The notes under the pieces are model-generated. The model made no database searches, was not told where the DNA came from, and saw only the letters and a program-made list of their open reading frames with translations. From Cetobacterium somerae (lineage in GTDB: Bacteria; Fusobacteriota; Fusobacteriia; Fusobacteriales; Fusobacteriaceae), in assembly GCF_022430525.1 (NCBI RefSeq), contig NZ_CP092520.1:434001-498000 (forward strand): a stretch of DNA of 64,000 nucleotides. The letters run 5' to 3'. Made by a program: the position numbers and the translations under genes. This document shows positions 215 to 52,120 of the stretch, piece by piece; the first letter of the stretch is position 1; every line of letters begins with the position of its first letter.

Positions 215-243
215 TTGACTTTAAACAATATATGGAGTATATT
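215..243 (+). promoter_or_regulatory. Sigma-70 type promoter of the cobalamin riboswitch unit
   Basis: TTGACT at 215-220 and TATATT at 238-243 are separated by 17 bases. Transcription would start near 250, about 20 bases before the aptamer. The promoter shows that the downstream riboswitch is still likely transcribed even though no gene follows it. Confidence 0.7.
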
Positions 244-271
244 CATATTAATGTTAAATAATATAACATGA

Positions 272-410
272 CACTTAGATAAGGAAATGAGGTTTGATTC
301 CTCTACGGCCCCGCCACTGTAATTTGGACGAAAGTATTTTATACCACTGGATTTATTTCTGGGAAGGTTTACGAGTAGAATGAAAAGAGTCAGGATATTT
401 ATCTTTAGTG
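272..410 (+). ncRNA. Cobalamin (B12) riboswitch aptamer
   Basis: The aptamer shows the conserved cobalamin core in order: AAGGAAATGAGG, then CCCCGCCACTGTAA near 309-322, a CCACTGG, GGGAAGG at 361-367, and the B12 box GAGTCAGGATAT at 387-398. A closing stem pairs CACT and AGATAA (272-282) with TTATCT and AGTG (399-410). These elements bind adenosyl- or hydroxocobalamin and normally repress B12 uptake or synthesis genes. A good ribosome site (GAGGGAGG, from 421) and ATG follow, but only a ten-codon frame is open. The next rightward gene is cobD, 2.6 kb away. Confidence 0.93.
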
Positions 411-436
411 GATTATCTTCGAGGGAGGAACTAAAT

Positions 437-46701: not shown

Positions 46702-48006
46702 ATGGCTGAGAAAAAAGAATTTGGTTTATTTGGACTCATTGGTGTAGTGATTGGCTCTGTTATCGGCGGTGGAATTTTTAATATCTCAAAAGAGATTGCA
46801 AAGACCTCTTCTATTAGTGCAGCTTTAATTGGCTGGAGCATATCTGCATTAGGTGTATTTTTCATAATAAAAATTTACCAAAGACTTCTTTTAAAAAAAT
46901 CGGATTTAAATAATGGTATATATGAATATGCTCGTATTGGCTTTGGACCTCTAGCTGGATTTTTTTCTGCCTGGGGATATTGGTTGGCTTGCGTTGTTAG
47001 TAACGCTAGTTACCCTGTTCTTATTGTTCAAACATTAAGTTATTTTTTTCCATCTATCGTGGGAGTGAAAACACCCCAAGGATTTATTTTAGGTACATTT
47101 CTTCTTTGGTTAGTTTCCTATATTATTATGAAGGGAATTAAAACTTATAATTTTTTTAATTTTTTAGCTACTTTTGGAAAAGTTTCAGCAATTATTATGT
47201 CTATTTGTTTTATGTTTATTTTTTTTAAATATAAGATATTTTCTTTTGATTTTTGGGGAACTTTAACCTATAAAAATAATATTTTTACACAAGTTAAAGG
47301 TTGTATGCTCCAGACATTATGGGCTTTGATTGGAGTAGAGGGTGCAGTTGTCATCTCAGGAAGAGCAAAAAATAAAAATGATGTTAGTCAAGCTACTTTT
47401 ATCGGTTATTTCATAGCACTTTTCTTATATATTTTTATAGTTGTACTAAGTTATGGAATTCTTCCTGCTGAGAAACTTCAAAACTTAAAAGATCCTGCTT
47501 TAGCTTATATTCTAGAAGCTATCGTTGGAAAGTGGGGTGCAATTTTTATTAATATTTCTGTTTTAATTTCTATATTTGGTGCTTGGATTACATGGACTAT
47601 TATAGCCGCTGAAATTCCATATAATATATCTATGGATAATTTATTTCCAAGTTTTTTAAAAAAATTAAATATTAATGGAGCTGCTAGTAACGCTTTAATT
47701 TTTAATGCTTTTATTAAACAGTTTACTTTTATGATATCTCTTTTTTCAAGCAATGTATATCTTATAATTACAAATTCTGCCGCCGCATTAATGCTTCTAC
47801 CATATATCCTCTCTATCTTATTTTTATTAAAAATTTCATCATTTAAAAATGAGAAAAAGTATATTCTATATGGATTTTTTGGTTTATTTTATTGTTTTTG
47901 GATGGTGTATGCTGCTGGTGAAAACTATATTATTCAAACGCTCCTTATATATTTAACTGGTTTACCATTTTATATATATAAAAAGTATAAATCCTCTACT
48001 AAATAG
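46702..48006 (+). CDS. Basic amino acid antiporter (APC family, ArcD-like)
   Basis: The 434-residue protein has about twelve membrane segments. GLFGLIGVVIGSVIGGGIFN is the APC helix-1 substrate motif, and LWALIGVEGAVVISGRAK is typical of the arginine/ornithine and related antiporters. I take ATG at 46702 (AGGTGA five bases before); the earlier GTG would directly abut the fetB stop. Exchange of arginine, ornithine, lysine or a decarboxylation product is expected. It follows fetAB closely, without a known functional link. Confidence 0.82.
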   Translation: MAEKKEFGLFGLIGVVIGSVIGGGIFNISKEIAKTSSISAALIGWSISALGVFFIIKIYQRLLLKKSDLNNGIYEYARIGFGPLAGFFSAWGYWLACVVSNASYPVLIVQTLSYFFPSIVGVKTPQGFILGTFLLWLVSYIIMKGIKTYNFFNFLATFGKVSAIIMSICFMFIFFKYKIFSFDFWGTLTYKNNIFTQVKGCMLQTLWALIGVEGAVVISGRAKNKNDVSQATFIGYFIALFLYIFIVVLSYGILPAEKLQNLKDPALAYILEAIVGKWGAIFINISVLISIFGAWITWTIIAAEIPYNISMDNLFPSFLKKLNINGAASNALIFNAFIKQFTFMISLFSSNVYLIITNSAAALMLLPYILSILFLLKISSFKNEKKYILYGFFGLFYCFWMVYAAGENYIIQTLLIYLTGLPFYIYKKYKSSTK

Positions 48007-48835
48007 TAGAGGATATTTTTTCATTTTTTCTTATTATTTTTTCTGCTAAGTTAGATATGTTATCAATTATATCAACTTTTAAACTTCCAGTTCCTATAAA
48101 TTTTTTTTCTGCTAGTTCTCCGGCTATTCCCATTGATACCACTCCACTCAATGCACTTATTAAAGGATTATTTCCTCCACCTAAATACGCTCCTATTAAA
48201 GATGAAATCATACACCCTGTTCCTGTAACTAGTCCCATTATTTTATGACCATTCATTATTTTAAAAACTAACTCTTGATTTCCAACATAATCAATCTCTC
48301 CTGTTATTGCTACAATTGAATTAAATTTTTCAGCCGCAAGCTTTACTAACTTTTCCCCACTATCATCTTTCTCTAAGGAATCTACTCCTCTGCTTAAAGA
48401 ATCTAGGTTTAAAAGTGACTTTATTTCAGCAGTATTCCCCTTTATCACCGTAAATCTCACTTCTTTTAATAATAAATTTACAAGATTTTTTCTAGCCTTC
48501 GTAGCACCTACTCCAACAGGGTCTAAAATAATTGGTTTTTTCAATTTATTGGCAATTTTTCCAACTTCTACTGCCATTGTCTCCATACTTTTATCCATAG
48601 TTCCTATATTTAAAACTACACTTGATGAAAACCCAATTATCTCCTCAATTTCTTCCATACAAAATGACATTAATGGTGATCCCCCAATAGCTAATGTTAT
48701 ATTGGCACAATCATTTATAGTCACTGTATTCGTTAAATGATAAACTAAAGGTGTTTTCTCTTTAATATTTTTTAAAGCTAGTATAATTTCATCAACTACC
48801 TCTTCTTTTTTTATATCCTTATTCAAAATCAACAC
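47999..48835 (-). CDS. thiM: Hydroxyethylthiazole kinase
   Basis: 278 residues of the ribokinase fold. ThiM phosphorylates 4-methyl-5-hydroxyethylthiazole for thiamine salvage. Motifs include LVYHLTNTVTINDCAN, GGSPLM, ILDPVGVGATK and GHKIMGLVTGTGCM. It overlaps thiD by 17 bases, and both are downstream of the TPP riboswitch. thiE is not in the window. Confidence 0.95.
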   Translation of the reverse strand: MLILNKDIKKEEVVDEIILALKNIKEKTPLVYHLTNTVTINDCANITLAIGGSPLMSFCMEEIEEIIGFSSSVVLNIGTMDKSMETMAVEVGKIANKLKKPIILDPVGVGATKARKNLVNLLLKEVRFTVIKGNTAEIKSLLNLDSLSRGVDSLEKDDSGEKLVKLAAEKFNSIVAITGEIDYVGNQELVFKIMNGHKIMGLVTGTGCMISSLIGAYLGGGNNPLISALSGVVSMGIAGELAEKKFIGTGSLKVDIIDNISNLAEKIIRKNEKISSTI

Positions 48836-49625
48836 CAGCCTTTTTATAAAGATCTACAAAATGACCTACTGGCCCTACTCCCTCTCCTATAGAAAAAGAA
48901 TTTTTTATTGCATCTGTTATATAACTTTTTCCAATTTTTACTGACTCTTCTATGGAATAACCTTTTCCTATATAAGAGGCTATCGTTGAAGATAATGTAC
49001 ATCCTGTTCCATGTGTATTTTTTGTTTTAAATCTCTCACCTAAAAACTTAATAATCTCATTTTCTTCTGTTAAAAGTATATCCGTACAATTGTCCTCTCT
49101 ATGCCCACCTTTTATTAAAATATTTTTAGCACCCATATTTTTTATTTTTTTAGCTGCTAAAATCATATCTTCTTCAGATTCTATTTTCATATCTGCTAAA
49201 ATTTCAGCTTCTGGAATATTTGGTGTTACAAGAGTTCCAATTTTTAAAAATTCCTTTAAAGCTTCAATTGCCTCCTCTTTTAAAAGATAATAACCACTTT
49301 TAGAAACCATAACTGGATCAATAACTATATTTTTTCCATTGACATTTTTTAAAGTTTCATAAACAACTTTTATAATTTCACTACTTGATAACATCCCTAC
49401 TTTTACTGAACTTATCTCTATATCTTCATACAAAACTTCTATTTGTTTTTTTATTATATCTATATCTATTTCTTGGACTGCAAAAACACCCATACTATTT
49501 TGTGCCGTAATTGCAGTTATAACACTCATACCATATACACCTTGAGCACTCATAGCTTTTAAATCAGCTTGTATTCCAGCTCCACCACATGAATCAGATC
49601 CTGCTATAGTCAAAATTTTTTTCAT
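48819..49625 (-). CDS. thiD: Hydroxymethylpyrimidine/phosphomethylpyrimidine kinase
   Basis: 268 residues. IAGSDSCGGAGIQADLKAM opens the kinase, and NTHGTGCTLSS closes the active site. It phosphorylates HMP and HMP-P for thiamine synthesis. Both thiazole and pyrimidine salvage thus occur here. The start follows GGAGGTAAAA. Controlled by the TPP riboswitch and terminator upstream. Confidence 0.95.
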   Translation of the reverse strand: MKKILTIAGSDSCGGAGIQADLKAMSAQGVYGMSVITAITAQNSMGVFAVQEIDIDIIKKQIEVLYEDIEISSVKVGMLSSSEIIKVVYETLKNVNGKNIVIDPVMVSKSGYYLLKEEAIEALKEFLKIGTLVTPNIPEAEILADMKIESEEDMILAAKKIKNMGAKNILIKGGHREDNCTDILLTEENEIIKFLGERFKTKNTHGTGCTLSSTIASYIGKGYSIEESVKIGKSYITDAIKNSFSIGEGVGPVGHFVDLYKKAGVDFE

Positions 49626-49679: not shown

Positions 49680-49721
49680 AAGTCATAATTTATAGTTAAT
49701 ACATCTATAAATATTATATCT

Positions 49722-49805
49722 TGCTACTTCCCTACGCTAGAATTAACTAGATCAGGTTCAAAGGGTCAGTTCAAAACTTCTCAGCCTAATGGCTCCCCTA
49801 GTAAA
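49722..49805 (-). ncRNA. TPP riboswitch (THI element)
   Basis: Read leftward, TACTAGGGGAGCC, GCTGAGA, GACCCTTTGAACCTGATCTAG and the closing GCGTAGGGAAGTA give the full thiamine-pyrophosphate aptamer. With excess TPP the terminator forms and thiDM are switched off. Confidence 0.97.
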
Positions 49806-49827
49806 CTTTTTTTATTCTCTTGAAAAC

Positions 49828-50534: not shown

Positions 50535-51929
50535 TTATAGAGTTTCTGCAACTTTTTGAACTTTTTCCTTAAAATCAGTTATATCTTTTATTACTTTTTT
50601 AGAGTCTACAGTTTTAATTTGCTTATCTTCTACTATTAGCTTTCCATTTACTATAACAGTATCTACATTGCTAGCATTAGCTGAATAAACTAAAGCTGAA
50701 TATGGATCATATATTGGGTTCATGTTTACTGACTTTGTTTCTACTATTACTATATCAGCTAATTTACCAACTTCTAAACTTCCTAATTCATTTTCTCTAT
50801 GTATAGCTCTTGCTCCACCTATCGTTGCCATTTCAACAGCTTTTTTTGGTGGTAGTGCTGATCTATCTTTTGTATCTAGTTTGTGTAACTTGGCAACATA
50901 CCCCATTTGACCAATTATATCTAAAGTGTTTCCACTCATAGGACCATCTGTTCCTAAACCTACTCTCATCCCTTTATCATGCATTTTTAAAGCTGGTGAG
51001 ATTCCTTTTGCTGACTTAATATTAGCAACCATATTATGAGCTATCCCAACATCTCTTTTTTTCATTAATTCTATATCACTATCTGTTATAAAGATATTAT
51101 GAGCTGCAATAAATCTTTCATTTAATAAACCAACTGAATCTAAATACTCAACAGGTGTCATTTTATATTCTTTTTTGATTCTATCAAACTCTCCATCAGT
51201 TTCTGCTACGTGCATTGAAACAGGCACGTTATATTTTTTTGAAAGTTCTTTGATTTTTAATAACTCCTCTTTTGTTACTGTATGAGGTCCATGAGGTCCG
51301 AATCCTGGAGTTATTAATTCATCATTTTTATATTTTTCTACAAAAGCAACAGCTCTATTTAATGTTTCTCCTTTTTCTTTTCCATCTGCTGTTGGATATT
51401 TAATTATATTTTGTGTCATAACTCCTCTTAATCCAACCTCTTTAACAGCTTGAGCAGCACTCTCTTCAAACAGATACATATCTACCATCGTAGTTACTCC
51501 ACCTAAAGCCATCTCCATAGCCCCATGCTTTGCTCCTATATATGACATCTCTGGGCTTACCATTTGATTTTCTAAAGGAAAAATATATCTATTTAGTCTA
51601 TCAGGAACATCGTCTGCTAAAGATCTAAATACTGTCATTGATACATGAGTATGAGTATTTATCATTCCAGGCATTATAATTCCATCGTCTGCATCTATAA
51701 CCTTAGTAGCACTATATTTTTTTAATAAATCTTCATTTCCCACAGAAATTATTTTATTATTTTTTATAACTATAACTCCATTTTCTATAATCTCTCTTTT
51801 TTCATTCATTGTTAAAAGAGTTCCATTTTTTATTATTATATTAGCTTGTTCTTTTTTTTCAACTAAAGAACTACACCCCACTATAAACAAACTTCCTAAT
51901 AATAATACACCTTTTAAATAATTTTTCAT
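50535..51929 (-). CDS. Lipoprotein amidohydrolase (TRZ/ATZ, MtaD-like), predicted purine deaminase
   Basis: The 464-residue protein has a lipobox, IVGC (Cys about residue 19), so the enzyme faces the periplasm. The amidohydrolase barrel follows: THTHVSM (metal His-x-His), HVAET (His), AHN (His) and GTDGP (Asp). MtaD/SsnA/guanine deaminase relatives share this fold and convert amino- to oxo-bases. Its control by a guanine riboswitch points to a guanine-type substrate. Exported forms are unusual. Confidence 0.85.
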   Translation of the reverse strand: MKNYLKGVLLLGSLFIVGCSSLVEKKEQANIIIKNGTLLTMNEKREIIENGVIVIKNNKIISVGNEDLLKKYSATKVIDADDGIIMPGMINTHTHVSMTVFRSLADDVPDRLNRYIFPLENQMVSPEMSYIGAKHGAMEMALGGVTTMVDMYLFEESAAQAVKEVGLRGVMTQNIIKYPTADGKEKGETLNRAVAFVEKYKNDELITPGFGPHGPHTVTKEELLKIKELSKKYNVPVSMHVAETDGEFDRIKKEYKMTPVEYLDSVGLLNERFIAAHNIFITDSDIELMKKRDVGIAHNMVANIKSAKGISPALKMHDKGMRVGLGTDGPMSGNTLDIIGQMGYVAKLHKLDTKDRSALPPKKAVEMATIGGARAIHRENELGSLEVGKLADIVIVETKSVNMNPIYDPYSALVYSANASNVDTVIVNGKLIVEDKQIKTVDSKKVIKDITDFKEKVQKVAETL

Positions 51930-51947
51930 TAAATAATCCTCCCAAAT

Positions 51948-51979
51948 AAAAAAATCCCAGCAAGCAAAAGCTTCCTGGG
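51948..51979 (-). terminator. Guanine-riboswitch terminator
   Basis: CCCAG-GA-AGC and GCT-TG-CTGGG form a hairpin on the minus strand followed by ATTTTTTT, about 20 bases before the ribosome site of the amidohydrolase gene. Confidence 0.88.
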
Positions 51980-52004
51980 TTGATTAACTCCCAATTTACT
52001 TTTA

Positions 52005-52067
52005 CTTATAGTACCAAATTTAAGGTTTGGTGTAGAAACTTTTGGCCATATCCCAAATATATATAAG
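52005..52067 (-). ncRNA. Purine riboswitch, guanine class
   Basis: Read leftward: P1 CTTATA pairs with TATAAG. P2 TTTGG/CCAAA carries loop GATATGG. J2/3 is GTTTCTAC. P3 ACCAAA/TTTGGT has loop CCTTAAA. The specificity position in TACTAT is C (equivalent to C74), which pairs with guanine; adenine riboswitches have U there. The downstream terminator makes it an OFF switch. Confidence 0.93.
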
Positions 52068-52092
52068 CTTTAAATAAATATTTCACAAAATA

Positions 52093-52120
52093 ATTCTAAC
52101 ATATTTGAATATAAAATCAA
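52093..52120 (-). promoter_or_regulatory. Promoter of the guanine-riboswitch transcript
   Basis: TTGATT (52120-52115), 16 bases, TAGAAT (52098-52093) on the minus strand. Confidence 0.6.

Follow-up and report, generated by a model that had tools for sequence, protein, structure and literature searches.

The presence of a purine riboswitch ahead of a gene for a putative envelope enzyme in Cetobacterium somerae raises the question of what such an enzyme would do under the control of a base sensed in the cytosol. Cytosolic salvage, permeases and biosynthesis are the textbook targets of purine riboswitches. The locus lies in a 64,000-nucleotide stretch of the genome that was analyzed as a whole (the window). 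Divergent from a glyA-like gene, its minus strand carries, in order, a promoter-like site, the aptamer, a terminator, a GGGAGG ribosome-binding site, and an ORF that starts with ATG (Table 1). The promoter-like site is a weak call: six such sites occur in the region versus 3.4 expected by chance. Elsewhere in the window, a TPP riboswitch (49712-49809, minus strand) precedes ORFs resembling thiD/thiM (48819-49625 and 47999-48835), and positions 238-417 (plus strand) hold a cobalamin riboswitch.

Table 1. Features of the locus in window coordinates, with the other riboswitch-led, predicted exported enzymes of the genome below them in locus coordinates.
Feature	Position	Strand	Basis
glyA-like gene, divergent neighbor	starts 52211	+	
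Promoter-like site TTGATT-16-TAGAAT, TG ahead of the -10	52093..52120	-	consensus scan, 9/12
Purine riboswitch aptamer, guanine type (C74)	51989..52086	-	RF00167 match and covariation
Antiterminator 5' half AAGUAAAAGU, overlapping P1 3' strand	51998..52007	-	folding of truncated leaders
Antiterminator 3' half GCUUUUGCUU, within terminator hairpin	51962..51971	-	folding of truncated leaders
Intrinsic terminator hairpin and U-run	51948..51979	-	folding energy
Shine-Dalgarno GGGAGG	51938..51943	-	sequence
Amidohydrolase ORF, 464 aa, predicted exported adenosine-type nucleoside deaminase (ATG at 51929)	50535..51929	-	profiles, motifs, fold
Lipobox IVGC, residues 16-19, lipidation cysteine C19	51873..51884	-	sequence; conserved in close orthologues
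Second lipoprotein amidohydrolase	L023:2982-4433 (G000:C4), also L058		52% identical to the 464-aa enzyme
Signal-peptide PNP-superfamily nucleosidase	L025:2278-3024		above MTA/SAH nucleosidase cut-offs
Signal-peptide PNP-superfamily nucleosidase	L022:5026-5808		

The aptamer scores 65.6 bits with the RF00167 model, whose gathering threshold is 37, and its E-value over the entire window is 3.1e-9. It is full-length: all model positions, 1-102, are matched and the junctions are conserved. Among 20 aptamers from the source and related genomes, 92% of the cells of the P1, P2 and P3 helices are paired, as compared to 33-46% when the partner is slid as a control, and changes on both sides are found in 14 of the 17 helix pairs. 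In this riboswitch class, a C at position 74 defines the guanine subclass and a U the adenine subclass. The query aptamer (UUUGGUACUAUAAG) has a C at this position, and in the 20-aptamer alignment its J2/3 segment reads GUUUCUAC, unlike that of the 2'-deoxyguanosine variants. An adenine or a 2'-deoxyguanosine aptamer is ruled out by C74 and the J2/3 sequence, and the element is, as judged from its sequence, a guanine-class purine riboswitch, expected to bind the ligand of its class. Hypoxanthine has been termed a biological effector of the xpt-type guanine riboswitch, with a KD of 240 nM (PMC7287874). The xpt-pbuX riboswitch of B. subtilis (RF00167) displays the same three-helix aptamer, GUUUCUAC junction, C74 and terminator-based OFF platform. 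Whereas switches of the xpt-pbuX type precede a cytosolic salvage enzyme, a permease or a biosynthetic operon, that of Cetobacterium precedes a predicted exported enzyme.

Between aptamer and gene, the terminator is formed by CCCAGGAAGC-UUUU-GCUUGCUGGG followed by U7, with an energy of -16.2 kcal/mol. It was missing from the output of a simple pattern scan, probably owing to a mismatch in its stem. Leaders were folded at successive truncations, as polymerase would expose them. Just short of the full terminator, AAGUAAAAGU (the P1 3' strand and the following bases) pairs with GCUUUUGCUU, with a small internal hairpin in between; once the terminator arm is complete, P1 and the terminator coexist. 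Since the terminator and antiterminator states are mutually exclusive in these foldings, a P1 held by its ligand would mean termination, and the design implies that the leader is a transcriptional OFF switch. With little guanine or hypoxanthine in the cytosol, P1 would not be held, and its freed 3' strand, together with the following bases, would pair with part of the terminator, forming the antiterminator and allowing transcription; imported hypoxanthine or guanine would turn the gene off. The same design, with sequence changes, is found in a paralogue described below and in most of the orthologous leaders examined. A terminator is present in nearly all the related leaders examined, a count outside which falls leader L035, where the script halted at an earlier U-run.

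The encoded protein matches PF01979 with 262 bits (cut-off 25) and possesses all the metal ligands of the family, HxH, H, H and D, at H93, H95, H240, H277 and D328. Its N-terminus, MKNYLKGVLLLGSLFIVGC-SS, harbors a lipobox, FIVGC, in which C19 is followed by a serine, as identified by eye and by pattern. The N-terminal signal, the lipobox and the invariant cysteine are those of bacterial lipoproteins and are kept in close orthologues. We infer that the enzyme is lipidated and anchored in the envelope, the signal being judged by eye rather than by a dedicated predictor. According to the +2 rule established for enterobacteria, a serine after the lipidation cysteine denotes the outer-membrane type, the type that would be predicted here. 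The initial annotation had proposed a complete guanine-type aptamer, a terminator ahead of the gene, an amidohydrolase with all its metal ligands and a lipoprotein signal, and the analysis agrees with it on each of these.

What does this enzyme act upon? NCBIfam profiles yield 406 bits for PRK06038 (DadD-like), 390 for PRK09045 and 318 for PRK07228 (5'-deoxyadenosine deaminase), with equivalog cut-offs of 609, 540 and 522, respectively. As no NCBIfam equivalog cut-off is reached, the enzyme is placed in a broad group instead of a named equivalog. By sequence, the closest relatives of known structure are 4f0r (an MTA/SAH deaminase by name), 3lnp, 4dzh, 4dyk and 4gbd. The predicted structure (mean pLDDT 83) matches 4f0r/4f0s (adenosine deaminase homologue; inosine is bound in 4f0s) with a Z of 53 over 430 residues, and 4dyk, 4dzh and 4gbd with a Z of about 52, 4gbd being a methylthio-coformycin complex. 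The Chromobacterium violaceum (4f0r/4f0s) and Pseudomonas aeruginosa (4gbd/4dyk) deaminases share with the Cetobacterium enzyme its fold, metal ligands, and PHxPxT and GTDG motifs, but only about 30% identity; their PDB chains begin near the first aligned strand, while the lipoprotein signal and the riboswitch are on the Cetobacterium side. The purine-contact position is H213, within PHGPHT (PHxPHT), matching H173 of TM0936, the Thermotoga MTA/SAH deaminase. The sequence that we take to be TM0936 has 406 residues, like 1p1m, and aligns over the same range. DadD from Methanocaldococcus and TM0936 display the same catalytic layout (31% identity to TM0936), whereas the Cetobacterium enzyme is predicted to be exported. 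E120, the counterpart of TM0936 E84, was dropped as a marker of nucleoside binding because guanine deaminases share a glutamate there. Together with the profiles, the PHxPxT histidine, the HxxE and GTDG motifs and the closest fold match, as found in MTA, adenosine and 5'-deoxyadenosine deaminases, point to an adenosine-type nucleoside as predicted substrate, without singling one out. Methylthioadenosine is a good candidate.

The genomic context was explored through the other purine riboswitches. The 2.97-Mb source genome (G000) contains 15 of them and a related genome (G014) contains 17; the searched genomes of genus g17, from the same order, yielded none. Position 74 is a C in 13 of the 15 aptamers and a U in the other two, which precede a cytosolic adenosine deaminase and one permease. 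The regulon was assigned from the ORFs following each riboswitch and from profiles, the permease, pur, guaA and xanthine dehydrogenase names being read from N-termini only. It comprises an NCS2-type permease, a purE-purK operon, an adenine deaminase and a signal-less DadD-like aminohydrolase (each with a permease), additional AzgA-like permeases, xanthine dehydrogenase-like genes together with a xanthine-type permease, guaA, the adenosine deaminase, a binding protein of the Bmp/PnrA type, two PNP-superfamily nucleosidases with signal peptides, and two lipoprotein amidohydrolases. The second of the latter has its own purine riboswitch and terminator, and its orthologues have, by coordinates, an adjacent riboswitch in three related genomes (G002, G006 and G009). 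The exported deaminases follow guanine-type switches, while the cytosolic adenosine deaminase follows an adenine-type switch (U74). Of the two nucleosidases, the L025 one passes the MTA/SAH nucleosidase cut-offs.

Riboswitch control of exported MTAN-type enzymes seems unusual. Downstream of the L025 nucleosidase, in the same apparent riboswitch operon, lies a gene (L025:3051-4052) for a 334-residue signal-peptide protein with no Pfam or NCBIfam match. To note, the 3' end of the adenine-type (U74) aptamer of locus L027 (G000:C2:271896-271993) extends into the ribosome-binding site and the start codon of a gene for an AzgA-like permease, whose control is probably translational rather than transcriptional.

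The riboswitch accompanies an orthologue of the enzyme in 11 Fusobacteriaceae genomes from three genera (nine from the same genus and one from each of two others), and these riboswitch-linked orthologues are lipoproteins or plain signal-peptide forms. Four more distant Fusobacteriales orthologues (L039-L041 and L044) keep a signal sequence, with no riboswitch found in the available flanks; two distant fusobacterial ones (L045 and L046) have neither. Relatives with 51-74% identity occur outside Fusobacteriota, in Vibrio, Photobacterium, Aliivibrio, Proteus, Providencia, Moritella, Marinomonas, Opitutae and others. A hydrophobic N-terminal signal is encoded at nearly all the 80 loci, the Firmicutes loci L094 and L112 having none. 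No riboswitch was matched at these non-fusobacterial orthologues within flanks of up to 4 kb, using a model built mostly from source-genome aptamers that could miss diverged ones. The riboswitch link is seen only in Fusobacteriaceae. The arrangement, described at first as unusual for purine salvage, is less singular than it seemed, as Gammaproteobacteria and Verrucomicrobiota commonly have exported relatives; those relatives come without a riboswitch match.

Gene neighborhoods in these relatives bear on the substrate. Twelve Opitutae loci have, upstream and in the same orientation, a gene for a nucleoside hydrolase of the inosine-uridine family (PF01156), and a nucleoside:H+ symporter is encoded nearby in the Woeseiaceae locus L085; because of these neighbors, a nucleoside substrate is favored. 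No consistent purine neighbor was recognized by eye in the Vibrio, Proteus and related loci examined. In Opitutae loci, including L093, L101 and L109, the gene for the exported deaminase is often followed by a large TonB-receptor-like ORF, and it is possible that hydrolase, deaminase and TonB-like genes form an outer-membrane nucleoside uptake locus.

A narrower specificity may be considered, in which the enzyme would process MTA, 5'-deoxyadenosine or SAH, by-products of polyamine and radical-SAM metabolism, instead of nutritional adenosine, the exported MTAN-like nucleosidases sharing this role. The name of 4f0r, the methylthio-coformycin complex of 4gbd, the PRK07228 and PRK06038 scores and the L025 nucleosidase all argue in this direction. 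However, extracytoplasmic processing of such compounds under guanine control has no clear reason, and the nucleoside hydrolase partner of the Opitutae loci suits ribonucleosides better. Moreover, arginines R136 and R148 of TM0936, presumably the binders of the SAH carboxylate, are not kept in the alignment: Q173 stands at one position and the other has no clear equivalent. This specificity is possible but rather unlikely.

It is improbable that the exported enzyme acts in the periplasm on free guanine, yielding xanthine, or deaminates 8-oxoguanine or isoguanine there, as might be thought from the guanine-type aptamer and from a superfamily that includes guanine and 8-oxoguanine deaminases (the 8-oxoguanine deaminase profile scores 248 bits). 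GuaD shares the superfamily and the metal site, but the Cetobacterium enzyme reaches only 155 bits with the guanine deaminase profile TIGR02967, against a cut-off of 375. In three guanine-deaminase-family proteins above this cut-off, from the same bacterial family, an arginine within a PRF motif occupies the position of H213; this motif is absent here, and TDGPMSGN stands where guanine deaminases have SDISGG. Guanine deaminase structures also match far less well (Z about 41) than nucleoside deaminases. Finally, the source genome encodes a separate guanine deaminase (G000:C2:563597-564793, 383 bits), which is not behind any of the 15 purine riboswitches. Profile, motif, fold and this separate GuaD lead us to reject a guanine deaminase identity. 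The link to purine salvage made in the initial annotation is upheld; its choice of guanine as substrate is not. Least probable of all is a drift to a cytosine-like or triazine-like substrate, with the riboswitch as a relic or as a general control under starvation: some drift is possible given the closeness in fold of isocytosine deaminase (Z 49.5) and triazine hydrolases (Z 46), but the riboswitch is kept in 11 genomes, the paralogue has its own, and the other riboswitch-led genes identified are purine genes or consistent with purine uptake.

We consider it likely that the gene, governed by a guanine-class OFF switch, encodes an exported deaminase of adenosine-type nucleosides, a broad claim that overlaps the MTA/5'-deoxyadenosine alternative. 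The best reading is an envelope step in purine nucleoside salvage, off when cytosolic guanine or hypoxanthine is ample. The envelope enzyme would convert adenosine-type nucleosides to their inosine-type counterparts, and the product or its released base would be imported, partly via permeases behind the same riboswitch class. In a cytosol short of guanine or hypoxanthine, exported deaminase and nucleosidases would be made together with base permeases. Conversion of adenosine to inosine would feed hypoxanthine, the branch point to AMP and GMP; that hypoxanthine feeds both would explain a guanine-type rather than an adenine-type switch. The chances are about even that these parts form an extracytoplasmic module converting scavenged adenosine-type nucleosides before import, with two lipoprotein deaminases, two MTAN-type nucleosidases that have signal peptides, and a protein binding nucleosides, and with a separate guanine-class riboswitch for each unit.

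The riboswitch class and the enzyme superfamily are already known. Searches on purine riboswitches with amidohydrolases, Fusobacterium or Cetobacterium, periplasmic deaminases and exported nucleosidases returned nothing specific, and no report of purine-riboswitch control of exported nucleoside-processing enzymes was found in the open literature searched, of which coverage is incomplete; within it, such control appears to be unreported. If the proposal is true, a cytosolic base sensor would set the extent of nucleoside processing outside the cytoplasm. The exported amidohydrolases of this branch, widespread in Vibrio, Proteus, Providencia and Opitutae, would also gain a substrate and a role. 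Cetobacterium is a gut genus, in which this regulatory idea would be directly testable.
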